NCBI RefSeq assembly: GCF_900103535.1 | Contig: NZ_FNHQ01000001.1 | Span: forward strand, 1-64,000 | Reading direction: 5' to 3' | DNA: 64,000 nt | From: Megasphaera paucivorans | GTDB lineage: Bacteria; Bacillota; Negativicutes; Veillonellales; Megasphaeraceae | In this document: positions 419-5,426 of the stretch, one piece after another | How positions within the stretch are numbered: the stretch's first letter is position 1 | Layout of the letters: the number at the start of each line of letters is the position of its first letter | Program-made: the position numbers and the translations under genes | Notes under the pieces: generated by a model | Database searches by the model: none | Seen by the model: the letters and a program-made list of their open reading frames with translations, nothing else | What the model was told of the DNA's origin: nothing

Positions 419-1234
419 TTATTTACATTTATTTCTTTTCATTACAATCTTTATAGCAAATCCAATTAATAAAAGAACAAAAATGCCAATAACCATATAT
501 GCAACACCATTAGTTATATGGTGTAACGTGGTATTAATCACATCGCCATTTTCAGAGGTTAAAAAATGGCGTAATAAAAATAAAATCACAAAAAAGAAAA
601 AAGTTGTCGATATAAGCTTTACAACGGGCCTATGCTTATCAATGAATGTCGGATGGTAATACACTCTGCTGCTAACCATAGAAAAGGTATTATTAAAATA
701 AGCTGACACGCGATTCCCATATGTTAAAATATCCAACGTTCCATTACTAAGCGCACTATGTTCTTGAATATGCTTCATAAAAATATTTTTCAACGCATCA
801 AAATAGGACATAATATTCGTCGGATCAGATGCCTTCGGAATTGCATCATATTCTTTAAATCGAATTTCATACACTTCTCTAAACACCGTTTTTACATGTT
901 CGGGAATATTTTCATCTTGAACAAATCTCTTATCTAATTTTCCTAATACTGTTTCAAATATTTTCTTAAGTTCCTTGTCCGTATGGATGTACTTTTTTAA
1001 AAACACATAATAATCAGAATGAACAGGAGCTTTTTTGTTATTTATAAGCTCTGAATGGACAGATGTATATAATACCCAGTACTTATAAAAACTATATTCT
1101 ATCAAATTAGTTAATATATAGTCTGCTGGTTCTCCTTGTAAGTCTTTAGCAATATATTCACAAATACCATCTGTTCTATCATAAACGATATCTGTCAAAA
1201 CTGTTATAAATTCCGCATATGTAAGATCCTTCAT
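419..1234 (-). CDS. Unknown protein with two C-terminal membrane segments
   Basis: I do not recognise this protein of about 271 residues. The first 200 residues are soluble, helical-looking and charged. Two hydrophobic segments follow near the C-terminus (around ISTTFFFFVILFLLRHF and ITNGVAYMVIGIFVLLLIGF), ending in a short basic tail (MKRNKCK), so the bulk is probably cytoplasmic. The reading frame opens with a TTG at 1246, but the ATG at 1234 with AAGGA 12 bases upstream is preferred. It is followed by its own terminator and sits between rfbC and the insertion sequence, so it may be a passenger or a local envelope gene. Its AT richness matches the neighbouring glycan genes. Confidence 0.55.
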   Translation of the reverse strand: MKDLTYAEFITVLTDIVYDRTDGICEYIAKDLQGEPADYILTNLIEYSFYKYWVLYTSVHSELINNKKAPVHSDYYVFLKKYIHTDKELKKIFETVLGKLDKRFVQDENIPEHVKTVFREVYEIRFKEYDAIPKASDPTNIMSYFDALKNIFMKHIQEHSALSNGTLDILTYGNRVSAYFNNTFSMVSSRVYYHPTFIDKHRPVVKLISTTFFFFVILFLLRHFLTSENGDVINTTLHHITNGVAYMVIGIFVLLLIGFAIKIVMKRNKCK

Positions 1235-1366
1235 TGTTGTAATCAATCCTTTTTTGTCAGATATAATACTAATAGTATATCACACAATAATAAACAATGG
1301 TAAAAATGCTTTTTATCTATAGTAATAACAAATACTATAAATTTTTATCTTATATAGTATGACGTA

Positions 1367-1965: not shown

Positions 1966-2014
1966 GTTACAACCGTCTTTGCCACAACCATCTTTATCTT
2001 TACTACAACTGCCT
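1966..2014 (-). repeat. Degenerate GGTTGT repeat cluster between rfbD and rfbC
   Basis: Read on the minus strand, three loose units of about 15 bases are visible: GGCAGTTGTAGTAAA, GATGGTTGTGGCAAA and GACGGTTGTAACTAT. The ACAACC/ACAACT cores on the plus strand are at 1969, 1984 and 2005. They match the consensus GCAGTTGTAGGAAAA of the tandem array at 3921-4050, in the opposite orientation. Confidence 0.6.
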
Positions 2015-2015
2015 T

Positions 2016-2867
2016 TTAATCTATTCCCTCTTCTATCAAAAACCGTCGTACAGCATCCTGCCAATCCGGCAAGGCATGAAACCCATTCTCCACCAGTTTT
2101 TCTTTACTCATGCGACTGTTCAACGGCCGTTTGGCCGGAGTCGGATACGCACTGGTCGGGATAGGCTTTACCCGGCATGTAATTCCTGCCTGGCGGAAAA
2201 TTTCCTCTGCAAATTCCGCAAACGAACAGATTCCTTCATTCGTCGCATGATATGTCCCATAGGCTTCACTCTTCACCATATCACATAAAAGCGGTGCCAG
2301 ATCCGCCATATACGTAGGCGATCCGATCTGATCGTCTACCACGCTTACTTCCTCATGTTCCTTCCCCAACCGCAGCATCGTCTTAATAAAATTACTGCCA
2401 TTCTTGCCAAAAGCCCAGGAAATGCGTACGATAAAATGCTTCGCTGCATATTTCCGCACTGCTTCTTCCCCTTCCCATTTTGTCTGCCCATAGAAATTCA
2501 ATGGCGCTGCCGGATCCTCCGGCGTGTGAAACGTGGTTCCCATTCCGTCAAATACATAATCCGTACTGATATACACCATCTTGGCATTCATTTCTCTGCA
2601 TACTTTAGCTATGTTTTCCGTACCCAGCACATTGACCTTATAGCATATATCCCGATTACTTTCTGCTTTATCTACTGCTGTATACGCACTGCAGTGGATT
2701 ACCGCATCGGCACCGTACTCCGTAAGGAAACGATGGGCTGCCGCAAAATCCGTAATATCAAAGTCAGCCAGATCTGCCCCCACACAGTCGATTCCACGCC
2801 GCCTCAGTTCCCGTACCACTTCGTACCCCAGCTGCCCGCCTACTCCTGTCACTGCTACTTTCATCAT
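2016..2867 (-). CDS. rfbD: dTDP-4-dehydrorhamnose reductase
   Basis: This is the last enzyme of dTDP-L-rhamnose synthesis; it reduces dTDP-4-keto-L-rhamnose with NAD(P)H. The 283-residue SDR-fold protein opens with the nucleotide-binding motif VTGVGGQLGYEV. It then shows HCSAYTAVDKAE, the STDYVFDG stretch and the catalytic YGQTKWEGE, and the C-terminal RPLNSRMSKEKL typical of RmlD. Its start overlaps the rfbB stop (ATGA at 2864-2867), so the two are translationally coupled. A second ATG one codon later is equally possible. Confidence 0.95.
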   Translation of the reverse strand: MMKVAVTGVGGQLGYEVVRELRRRGIDCVGADLADFDITDFAAAHRFLTEYGADAVIHCSAYTAVDKAESNRDICYKVNVLGTENIAKVCREMNAKMVYISTDYVFDGMGTTFHTPEDPAAPLNFYGQTKWEGEEAVRKYAAKHFIVRISWAFGKNGSNFIKTMLRLGKEHEEVSVVDDQIGSPTYMADLAPLLCDMVKSEAYGTYHATNEGICSFAEFAEEIFRQAGITCRVKPIPTSAYPTPAKRPLNSRMSKEKLVENGFHALPDWQDAVRRFLIEEGID

Positions 2868-3883
2868 AGTTCACCCTGCATCTTTCTATCATAATTTTTA
2901 TATTCCCCGCTTAGGATATGTTCCCACCAAGGTTTATGATTCAAATACCACGCAATGGTTTTCTGAATTCCTTCTGTAAACCGGGTTGTCGGTTCCCAGC
3001 CAAGTTCTTTCCGTATTTTCGTCGGGTCAATCGCATAGCGCCGATCATGCCCGGGACGATCGGCTACAAACTGGATCAAGTCTTCACTCTTTCCCAATGC
3101 CTGTACAATCGTCTGGACAACACTCAGATTCGTCTGTTCATTATGCCCGCCAATATTGTATATTTCTCCCACTCTGCCGCTTCGGATAATCAAATCAATG
3201 GCGCTGCAATGATCCTCCACATACAGCCAATCCCGTACATTGGCCCCTTTTCCGTATACAGGCAGCGGTTTATCCTGCAGTGCACGGGTAATCATCAAGG
3301 GAATCAATTTCTCCGGAAAATGATAGGGTCCATAATTATTCGAACACCGGGAAATGGTAACCGGCAAGCCATATGTTCGATAATATGCCTGTACCAGCAA
3401 ATCCGCCCCTGCCTTTGATGCCGAGTACGGGCTGGAGGTATGGAGCGGTGTTTCCTCCGTAAAGAACTGGTCCGGCTTATCCAGCGGCAAGTCACCATAT
3501 ACTTCATCCGTAGATACCTGATGATACCGGGTAATGCCGTATATCCGGCAGGCATCCAGCAATACCGACGTTCCCATGATATTAGTACGCAGAAATATTT
3601 CCGGATCGATAATGGAACGGTCCACATGGCTTTCTGCCGCAAAATTCACAAGGACATCCGGTTTTTCCACCTCAAATAGATGGTATACGAATGCCCTGTC
3701 AGCAATATCTCCCTTTATAAATGCAAAATGGGAGTTATCCATCACAGGCGCCAAGGTTTCCCTATTCCCGGCATAGGTCAGCGCATCCAGGCAAATAACC
3801 GTATCCTCGGTATGCTGCCGCAGTATCCTATGAACAAAATTTCCTCCAATAAATCCGGCTCCGCCGGTGATTAATAGTTTCAT
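2864..3883 (-). CDS. rfbB: dTDP-glucose 4,6-dehydratase
   Basis: This enzyme converts dTDP-glucose to dTDP-4-keto-6-deoxyglucose with bound NAD+. It has about 339 residues and starts MKLLITGGAGFIGGNFV, a Rossmann glycine motif. Family landmarks follow: NFAAESHVDRSI, HQVSTDEVYGDL, the catalytic SPYSASKAGADLL (YxxxK), and the substrate-loop motif RCSNNYGPYHFPEKLIPL. The open frame extends to a GTG at 3898, but the ATG at 3883 has GGGAG about 6 bases upstream and gives the usual N-terminus. The 15-bp tandem array begins about 40 bases upstream, within its promoter or leader region. Confidence 0.95.
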   Translation of the reverse strand: MKLLITGGAGFIGGNFVHRILRQHTEDTVICLDALTYAGNRETLAPVMDNSHFAFIKGDIADRAFVYHLFEVEKPDVLVNFAAESHVDRSIIDPEIFLRTNIMGTSVLLDACRIYGITRYHQVSTDEVYGDLPLDKPDQFFTEETPLHTSSPYSASKAGADLLVQAYYRTYGLPVTISRCSNNYGPYHFPEKLIPLMITRALQDKPLPVYGKGANVRDWLYVEDHCSAIDLIIRSGRVGEIYNIGGHNEQTNLSVVQTIVQALGKSEDLIQFVADRPGHDRRYAIDPTKIRKELGWEPTTRFTEGIQKTIAWYLNHKPWWEHILSGEYKNYDRKMQGEL

Positions 3884-3920
3884 GTGTAGCTCCCACACCT
3901 TTCCATAAAATTTGTTGGAT

Positions 3921-4050
3921 TGGGTTGTAATAAATTGGGTTATGATAGAATCAGTTGTAATAAAAGCGGTTGCAAGAAAAGCAGTTGTAGGAAAAGCAGT
4001 TGTAGGAAAAGCAGTTGTAGGAAAGGCAGTTGTAGGAAAAGCAGTTGTAC
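3921..4050 (+). repeat. 15-bp tandem repeat array (consensus GCAGTTGTAGGAAAA)
   Basis: About 8.7 consecutive 15-base units run from 3921 to 4050. Four near-identical units (GCAGTTGTAGGAAAA, one ending in G) occupy 3981-4040, followed by a partial unit to 4050. The units at 3966, 3951, 3936 and 3921 are progressively diverged. The array fills the spacer between the S23-type gene and rfbB. The unit length is a multiple of three, but no gene reads through it. The unit is too short, and has no spacers, for CRISPR. Looser copies in the opposite orientation occur at 1966-2014 and 4486-4541. Confidence 0.9.
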
Positions 4051-4066
4051 GTTTTTTAAATGGACA

Positions 4067-4435
4067 TTAATTGCAATTTTCTTTTAATGTTTTAATCAAT
4101 GTGTTCAAAAGTTTACTCACATGGTGACATAATCCCATGGCCTTGTCTATTTCAGCGCTTGTAACATACTCCAAATGCATACAAATTTGAAGCTGCGTTT
4201 CTAGTTCTGCAATAGATCCTCGAGAAATATACAAAAATCTGATAAAATCCTTATTCGAATATCGTGCCTGTCCTTCTGCTATATTCGAAGGAATAGAAAC
4301 AGCTGCTCGTCGCATTTGATCTGATAAACCATACAATTCTTCTTTTGGCAAATATTTAATTAGACTATATATCTCTTTCACCAATTCCATACTACGTTGC
4401 CAAACAACCAAATCCTGATAATATCGTAAAGCCAA
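4067..4435 (-). CDS. Four-helix-bundle protein (S23/IVS-type, TIGR02436-like)
   Basis: This 122-residue protein belongs to the small four-helix-bundle family first seen inside 23S rRNA intervening sequences and also found near polysaccharide loci and as the Avd accessory of diversity-generating retroelements. Diagnostic text is YQDLVVWQRSMELVKEIY, LPKEELYGLSDQMRRAAVSI, PSNIAEGQARYS and FLYISRGSIAELETQL. The start is TTG at 4435 with TAGGAG 8 bases upstream. The molecular role of stand-alone members is not established, though nucleic-acid binding is suspected from a basic surface. It interrupts the rml operon and is flanked on both sides by GGTTGT repeat clusters in inverted orientation. No reverse transcriptase is present. 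Confidence 0.85.
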   Translation of the reverse strand: MALRYYQDLVVWQRSMELVKEIYSLIKYLPKEELYGLSDQMRRAAVSIPSNIAEGQARYSNKDFIRFLYISRGSIAELETQLQICMHLEYVTSAEIDKAMGLCHHVSKLLNTLIKTLKENCN

Positions 4436-4485
4436 TTCACCAACTCCTATATACGACTCATACTATTTTATCATATTCTTTAAAT

Positions 4486-4541
4486 CACAACTCACAACCG
4501 CATTTTTTTCTACAACCGTACAATCTTTTATCCACAACCGC
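4486..4541 (-). repeat. GGTTGT repeat cluster upstream of the S23-type gene
   Basis: On the minus strand three or four loose units are seen, including GCGGTTGTGGATAAAA, TACGGTTGTAGAAAAAAA and GCGGTTGTGAGTTGTGA. The plus-strand ACAACC/ACAACT cores are at 4487, 4494, 4512 and 4534. It mirrors the array at 3921-4050, so the S23-type gene lies between inverted copies of the same repeat family. Confidence 0.6.
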
Positions 4542-4547
4542 TTGCAA

Positions 4548-5426
4548 TTACTTTAAAATCTTCCCATCTACCACTTTTTGCAAATATTGTCCATAGGGAG
4601 ACTTTCCATATTTTTCAGCACTCTTTGCCAATGTCTCTTTATCTATCCAGCCCTGTTCATAGGCTATTTCTTCTAATGCCGAAATTTGCACGCCAGCCCG
4701 TTGTTCCACAGCTTTTACAAACTCCGACGCTTCATTCAGACTATCTATCGTTCCCGTATCCAGCCAGGCATAGCCGCGGCCCAAGGTAATCACATCCAGC
4801 ATGCCCGCATCCAGATACATTTTATTTAAATCCGTTATTTCCAATTCCCCGCGCGCAGACGGGCGTACTTGTTCCGCATACTCACATACTTTGCTGTCAT
4901 AAAAATACAGCCCTGTAACCGCATAATTTGATTTCGGCACTTTGGGTTTTTCTTCAATAGAAACCGCTTTTCCGGCAGTGTCAAATTCGATAACCCCAAA
5001 CCGCTCCGGATCCTCCACATAATATCCAAAAACAGTAGCTCCTTGTTTCTGGACTGCTGCCTCTTCCAGATGTCTTCGAAGTCCGGCACCATAAAAAATA
5101 TTATCTCCCAGTATCATCGCACACGGCTCGCCACCAATAAAATCCGCTCCTAAAAGAAACGCCTGTGCCAAGCCTTCTGGCTTGGGCTGAACTTTATATG
5201 ATAAATGCAAACCGTATCGTGATCCATCTTCCAATAATCGTTCAAAGTTCGGCAAATCTGCCGGTGTAGAAATAATTAAAACATCTCGAATTCCTGCCAT
5301 CATCAATGTGGACAACGGATAATAAATCATCGGCTTATCATATACCGGCAATAACTGTTTCGATGTTACCATCGTCAGCGGATATAAACGTGTACCACTG
5401 CCTCCTGCTAATACTATTCCCTTCAT
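4548..5426 (-). CDS. rfbA: Glucose-1-phosphate thymidylyltransferase
   Basis: This enzyme makes dTDP-glucose from glucose-1-phosphate and dTTP, the first step of dTDP-rhamnose synthesis. The 292 residues are typical. The nucleotidyltransferase signature [18 protein letters not shown] opens the protein, followed by [20 protein letters not shown], the metal-binding [20 protein letters not shown], and [22 protein letters not shown] precedes the ATG at 5426. It appears to be the first gene of the minus-strand rml group, and its promoter should lie in the spacer shared with the divergent wzz-like gene. Confidence 0.95.

Follow-up and report, generated by a model that had tools for sequence, protein, structure and literature searches.

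An S23 gene between inverted repeat arrays in a Megasphaera rml operon: a probable copy of a widespread minimal mobile element

Why should a gene of the 23S-rRNA IVS family, bracketed by short repeats that face each other, lie in an operon for rml genes? We addressed this question in the window, the whole 64,000-nucleotide stretch of Megasphaera paucivorans DNA that was analysed. The S23 gene (4067-4435, minus strand, 122 aa, TTG start with AGGAG upstream) occupies the spacer between rmlA (4548-5426, minus strand), which lies upstream of it, and rmlB (2864-3898, minus strand), the host operon gene downstream; rmlD (2016-2867) and rmlC (1367-1918), both on the minus strand, complete the set. 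The rmlA product, glucose-1-phosphate thymidylyltransferase, was assigned from its ORF and from homologues 71-82% identical in the family. Profile searches matched the S23 protein to PF05635 (E=2e-42) and TIGR02436 (7e-42), with bit scores of 144 and 142 against curated cut-offs of 33.8 and 24, respectively. Its AlphaFold model has four helices (pLDDT 95), a fold that matches 2gsc/2rld with TM of 0.79-0.86. The gene is the single S23/PF05635 copy in the 2.9-Mb genome, and its place between rmlA and rmlB puts it outside the 23S rRNA, the location of the IVS. Beyond rmlC, a 275-aa protein encoded at 419-1246 (minus strand) gave no NCBIfam match and has, by eye, hydrophobic stretches near its C-terminus.

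The 3′ array of the S23 cassette (3919-4050, plus strand) consists of nine 15-bp GTTGTAGGAAAAGCA-like units, inverted relative to the 5′ array and seen as ACAAC words on the S23 sense strand. TRF reported period 15 at 3919-3964 and 3952-4049 with 90% matches, and nine GTTNN units start from 3924 to 4044, one per 15 bp. The 5′ array (4486-4541, minus strand) carries four unevenly spaced GTTGT words on the S23 sense strand. Because this strand has four GTTGT and no ACAAC upstream of the gene and no GTTGT and seven ACAAC downstream, the two arrays are inverted, and the earlier note's description of an S23 gene of the 23S-IVS family between inverted GTTGT-type arrays is borne out. A third cluster, which the note had placed between rmlD and rmlC, was recovered at 1969-2009 within a one-orientation array (1966-2014, minus strand) of three GTTGT words, which is related to the cassette arrays and has no partner array. 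A pattern of three GTTGT words matched only these three clusters in the whole 2.9-Mb genome, so the repeats exceed chance.

Inverted as their words are (4:0 and 0:7), the two arrays of the window are weakly complementary base by base (local score 12-13, p 0.07 to 0.29), and the whole element folded as RNA has ordinary stability (z -0.02). Their periodicity is strong at 15 (0.83) and low at lag 7, and the heptamer with an AGK tag described below is not seen in them. With its 15-bp period and weak complementarity, the window copy is atypical of the S23 cassettes found elsewhere.

Three collections of S23 loci were compared. Genomes taken one per species supplied 80 loci (Bacillota, Bacteroidota, Acidobacteria, Planctomycetes, Proteobacteria, Treponema, candidate phyla and others); Bacillota genomes together with the window's family supplied about 30 more, and plasmids, almost all of them cyanobacterial, supplied 14. 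At each locus we aligned the 200 nt upstream of the gene with the downstream 200 nt in reverse complement. Inverted arrays near the ORF, matching within a locus and not between loci, were found at 72 of 120 S23 loci from many phyla. Of the one-per-species loci 74 were usable, and 57% of these scored at least 20; the share fell to 1.5% for flanks taken from two different loci, to 0.1% for windows of matching geometry at other places on the same contigs, and to 4% when the flanks were compared in direct orientation. The excess recurred in all three collections (about 60%, against 1-8% for mismatched pairs and 0.1% for control windows). Among Bacillota, the S23 subfamilies at L050, L051, L052, L054, L055 and L057 had no inverted partner within 200 nt; an AGTCAGG-type upstream ladder was still present at L052, L054, L055 and L057.

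The upstream arrays have a period of 7 and its double, with no other lag from 4 to 16 clearly raised. Aligning one consensus heptamer per locus gave NNNNAGK (that is, AGKNNNN), in which A and G each reach 95%, far more than in heptamers with shuffled letters; the other letters vary across loci, and the two ends of one locus agree. AGK-ladder-rich genomes made up 26 of 49 with S23 and 21 of 250 without (p 6e-12, in a test that ignores species kinship). A backward control pattern is raised in the ladder-rich genomes as well, so it is the logo, and not this census, that supports the AG tag. The earlier note had proposed to test whether GCAGTTGTAGGAAAA-like repeats co-occur with S23 genes. In that wording the test fails, since each locus has a repeat sequence of its own; common to the loci are the period of 7, the AGK tag and the inverted arrangement. 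In a Nostoc element, the ladders fold as the terminal stem (z -3.0). Array-only copies are not always hairpins, since 18 of 20 sampled solo arrays had no inverted partner, two being convergent and none divergent. In the Clostridia, three loci (L096, L101 and L130) resemble one another beyond the ladder too, in longer inner ends (e.g., TTAGCGAATGGGCGGGACAC) that may mark a subfamily whose ends are more conserved.

The same spacer was compared in relatives of the window genome. S23 lies between rmlA and rmlB in G002, G015, G006 (as a truncated gene) and the same-genus G016. The copies in G002, G015 and G006 have short inverted repeats that differ from genome to genome: TTTGATGTTTGATGT / ACATCAAACATCAAA in G002, where the period at this very spot is 7 bp, and TTAGGGGCTAGGGATTAG / CTAATCCCTAAC in G006, the pairs of G015 and G006 being judged by eye and scoring low in alignment. 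The window's element recurs in G016, where a contig end truncates it and it has six 15-bp units against nine in the window. Relatives without the gene, whose rml loci the earlier note had proposed as a comparison, do exist: in G007, G010, G011 and G012 S23 is absent and rmlB follows rmlA after about 46-70 bp, so the spacer has empty counterparts, at a divergence too great to map the exact joints. The rmlD-rmlC spacer of G016 (L083, G016:C4 about 2400-2540) holds eight copies with a 21-bp period where the window has three GTTGT words; this one-orientation array thus differs between two species of one genus and is expandable.

Exact joints came from plasmids of Nostocales, the only source of clean empty sites. 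A cassette is present in a conjugative plasmid of Trichormus variabilis and in a Scytonema plasmid, while plasmids of Tolypothrix, Aulosira and others have flanks 97-98% identical and lack exactly the 428 or 414 bp of the cassette. GTAAT occurs once in the empty site and twice in the filled one, a clean 5-bp duplication. Nostoc ATCC 53789 harbours two related plasmids that share a homologous operon and carry S23 at a different joint in it, and each plasmid therefore supplies the empty site for the other. At one joint TTCTA stands on either side of the cassette, with a flank difference of 1 base (near-clean); the other has 3 bp or a mismatched 5 bp. Judged from these alignments, one clean site has a 5-bp duplication and a second probably has one too. 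The figure rests on few sites, because target duplications showed no statistical enrichment around the 72 elements that lack an empty site. The homology of the L208 cassette to cassettes at two unrelated sites (78-82%) spans nearly its full length and ends with the cassette, and S23 dN/dS between these cassettes is 0.10-0.14, showing purifying selection and hence maintenance of the protein across sites. Array-only derivatives lie near full copies (e.g., L218). At other sites the record is less exact: S23 is absent from relatives at the cas6-cas4 and nrdB-nrdA sites, with joints that are not clean, and at the L200 and L210 sites, with no clear duplication; a traM-like site has one empty and one array-only relative, with inexact joints. 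No S23 was found in phage records.

Taken together, these data lead us to read the window's S23 gene and its two opposing arrays as one copy of a widespread minimal mobile element of about 0.42-0.6 kb, of which the 23S-rRNA IVS would be one manifestation, and we put the probability of this reading at roughly 0.7. As far as sequence comparison can define it, the unit runs [repeat ladder]-S23-[inverted ladder]; it is present or missing as a whole and lies mostly in operons and in the sense direction; its ladder normally has period 7 and an AG(G/T) tag, the rest being locus-specific, with ends that match within a locus. The earlier note had offered an insertion unit or a protein-repeat pair as explanations. 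Both gain support, on a much broader scale than the note guessed, from the arrays around S23 in many phyla and from the precise empty sites; the idea of a shared repeat sequence does not stand.

Of the alternatives, the one that survives best, itself unlikely, is that S23 belongs to the operon as any other gene would, perhaps regulating surface-polysaccharide genes, and that the arrays are products of slippage kept symmetrical by quasipalindrome correction in replication. It would account for the recurrence of S23 in the rmlA-rmlB spacer of several relatives, for array lengths that vary among close relatives and for the orientation of S23, which is that of its co-directional flanking genes at 74 of 79 loci. 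The remaining five loci are antisense and speak against it, as do the precise presence or absence of the whole block and the occurrence of the same cassette in unrelated contexts. These hosts, which include rml and tra operons, cas6-cas4, cmr2-cmr3, nrdB-nrdA (antisense) and 23S rRNA, have no functional theme, a further point against it. Three of the cassettes (L202, L204 and L205) lie in CRISPR operons of cyanobacterial plasmids, namely cas6-cas4 of type I-D in two species and cmr2-cmr3 of type III-B.

A second and less probable alternative is that the cassette is a MITE-like passenger moved in trans by an ordinary transposase, with S23 as cargo. Small size, array-only derivatives and the 5-bp target duplication at the one clean site all speak for it, and the cassettes do resemble MITEs and REP/RAYT in being small palindromic intergenic units whose array-only derivatives outnumber the protein gene. 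However, the ends of MITEs and REP/RAYT are conserved sequences served by a transposase, those of a MITE copying the ends of its IS, whereas S23 cassettes encode no transposase and have ends free in sequence that, close copies apart, match within loci and generally not between them. Purifying selection on S23 also argues against its being cargo.

Movement by reverse transcription, in which S23 would serve a resident reverse transcriptase as Avd does, is the least probable of the three, for although S23 matches the fold of Avd in DGR ribonucleoproteins (TM about 0.75-0.80), shows a sense bias and is slightly more often accompanied by a reverse transcriptase (31 of 49 genomes, vs 116 of 250 without S23, p 0.04), no RVT_1 gene is present in 8 of 26 ladder-rich S23 genomes, including the single-contig, 98-99% complete G072 and G110, and a resident reverse transcriptase as obligate partner is thereby disfavoured.

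S23-Avd homology has been noted (PMC10053308), and S23 has the same four-helix fold as Avd (PDB 4dwl, 8ub7, 8ube) with a weak profile match, the window protein scoring 28.5 bits against DivGenRetAVD, whose cut-off is 80. Avd works with a reverse transcriptase and template/variable repeats, whereas the cassette is without them and several S23-rich genomes lack RVT_1; no reverse transcriptase and no TR/VR repeat pair was found among the genes flanking the window S23. One locus, L011 (G002:C1:1514272-1517574), has at about 1200-2000 a weak PF05635 match (27 bits) between near-identical stretches that differ mainly at A positions. These are VR/TR-like (83-point direct repeat), and by eye the locus is a DGR with Avd, a natural control without inverted heptamers.

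The mobile-cassette reading ties most closely to the 23S-rRNA IVS. The IVS of Coxiella burnetii has an S23p ORF, a length of about 430 nt, a variable number of GACAGAT heptamers upstream of the ORF and a 28-bp terminal inverted repeat; it is cut by RNase III and has been proposed to be selfish or mobile (PMC4990558). The cassettes share with the IVS the S23 ORF, inverted complementary ends and heptameric repeats, and the two copies sampled in 23S rRNA (L068 and L072) have inverted heptamer ends of the same kind as the cassettes. Known IVS lie in rRNA helices; the cassettes, by contrast, are found across many phyla in mRNA operons and on plasmids, and they have empty sites and a 5-bp duplication.

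We propose that the cassette would be expressed from the host operon and that its arms would pair in the transcript, or in single-stranded DNA. S23 is predicted to bind the AG-tagged ladder or the stem and not a fixed terminal sequence; free letters together with matching ends are what is expected if pairing plus AG spacing is recognised. The protein might then promote copying or insertion. A title cited in PMC10053308 reports the crystallised S23 protein Xcc0516 as an assembly of five bundles, and by analogy with crystallised relatives and with Avd, S23 is probably a pentamer. Processing of the RNase III type could release the cassette from mRNA, as it does the IVS from rRNA. The window copy may be an aged or divergent member whose ladder has turned into a 15-bp repeat.

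Several observations count against the mobile-cassette reading. The window arrays are neither heptameric nor more than barely complementary; some 40% of S23 loci lack a strong inverted pair; ladders also occur in 21 genomes without S23, and most sampled solo arrays are unpaired; duplications are not enriched, and clean empty sites are confined to one group of plasmids. There is no transposase within the cassette, S23 is not known to have any enzymatic activity, and a sense bias is equally to be expected of a plain operon gene.

For decades S23 proteins and the 23S-rRNA IVS have been regarded as selfish or as leftovers of transposition, although outside rRNA neither a unit with its ends nor a mechanism had been defined (PMC4990558). 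Once there is a cassette that has ends, empty sites and a rule for its repeats, the matter becomes one of transposition that can be tested. The cassette would also be a source of at least some of the heptameric repeats of bacteria that have had no explanation, and would tie them to the Avd fold of diversity-generating retroelements. A search of open-access literature, weak as evidence of absence, turned up no paper that connects heptamer arrays with S23 genes outside rRNA. The dispersed, repeat-ended and probably mobile class probably extends the known 23S IVS, with no description found in that literature. The earlier note's suggestion of an undescribed system may hold for this dispersed form; S23 in the 23S-rRNA IVS was already known (PMC4990558).

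A wider and more tentative idea, which we consider possible and somewhat doubtful, is that these are bacteria-wide transposase-free mobile elements in which S23 reads an AG-every-seven ladder or stem and generates many bacterial heptameric repeats and hairpins. Heptameric simple repeats have been reported in Xanthomonas (GGGAATC) and Nostoc (GGGGATT) (PMC4692102). Like these and the cyanobacterial STRR, the cassette arrays are seven-base, intergenic, variable in copy number and often in convergent inverted pairs; unlike the units published in that paper, which is silent on S23, they bear an AG tag. Many convergent GTTGTTG/GTTCTTG array pairs lie in spacers of G013 (L034, L084-L087), a relative's genome, 78% complete, in which an S23 gene was not found; in the regions read, the array pairs were convergent in nine of nine.
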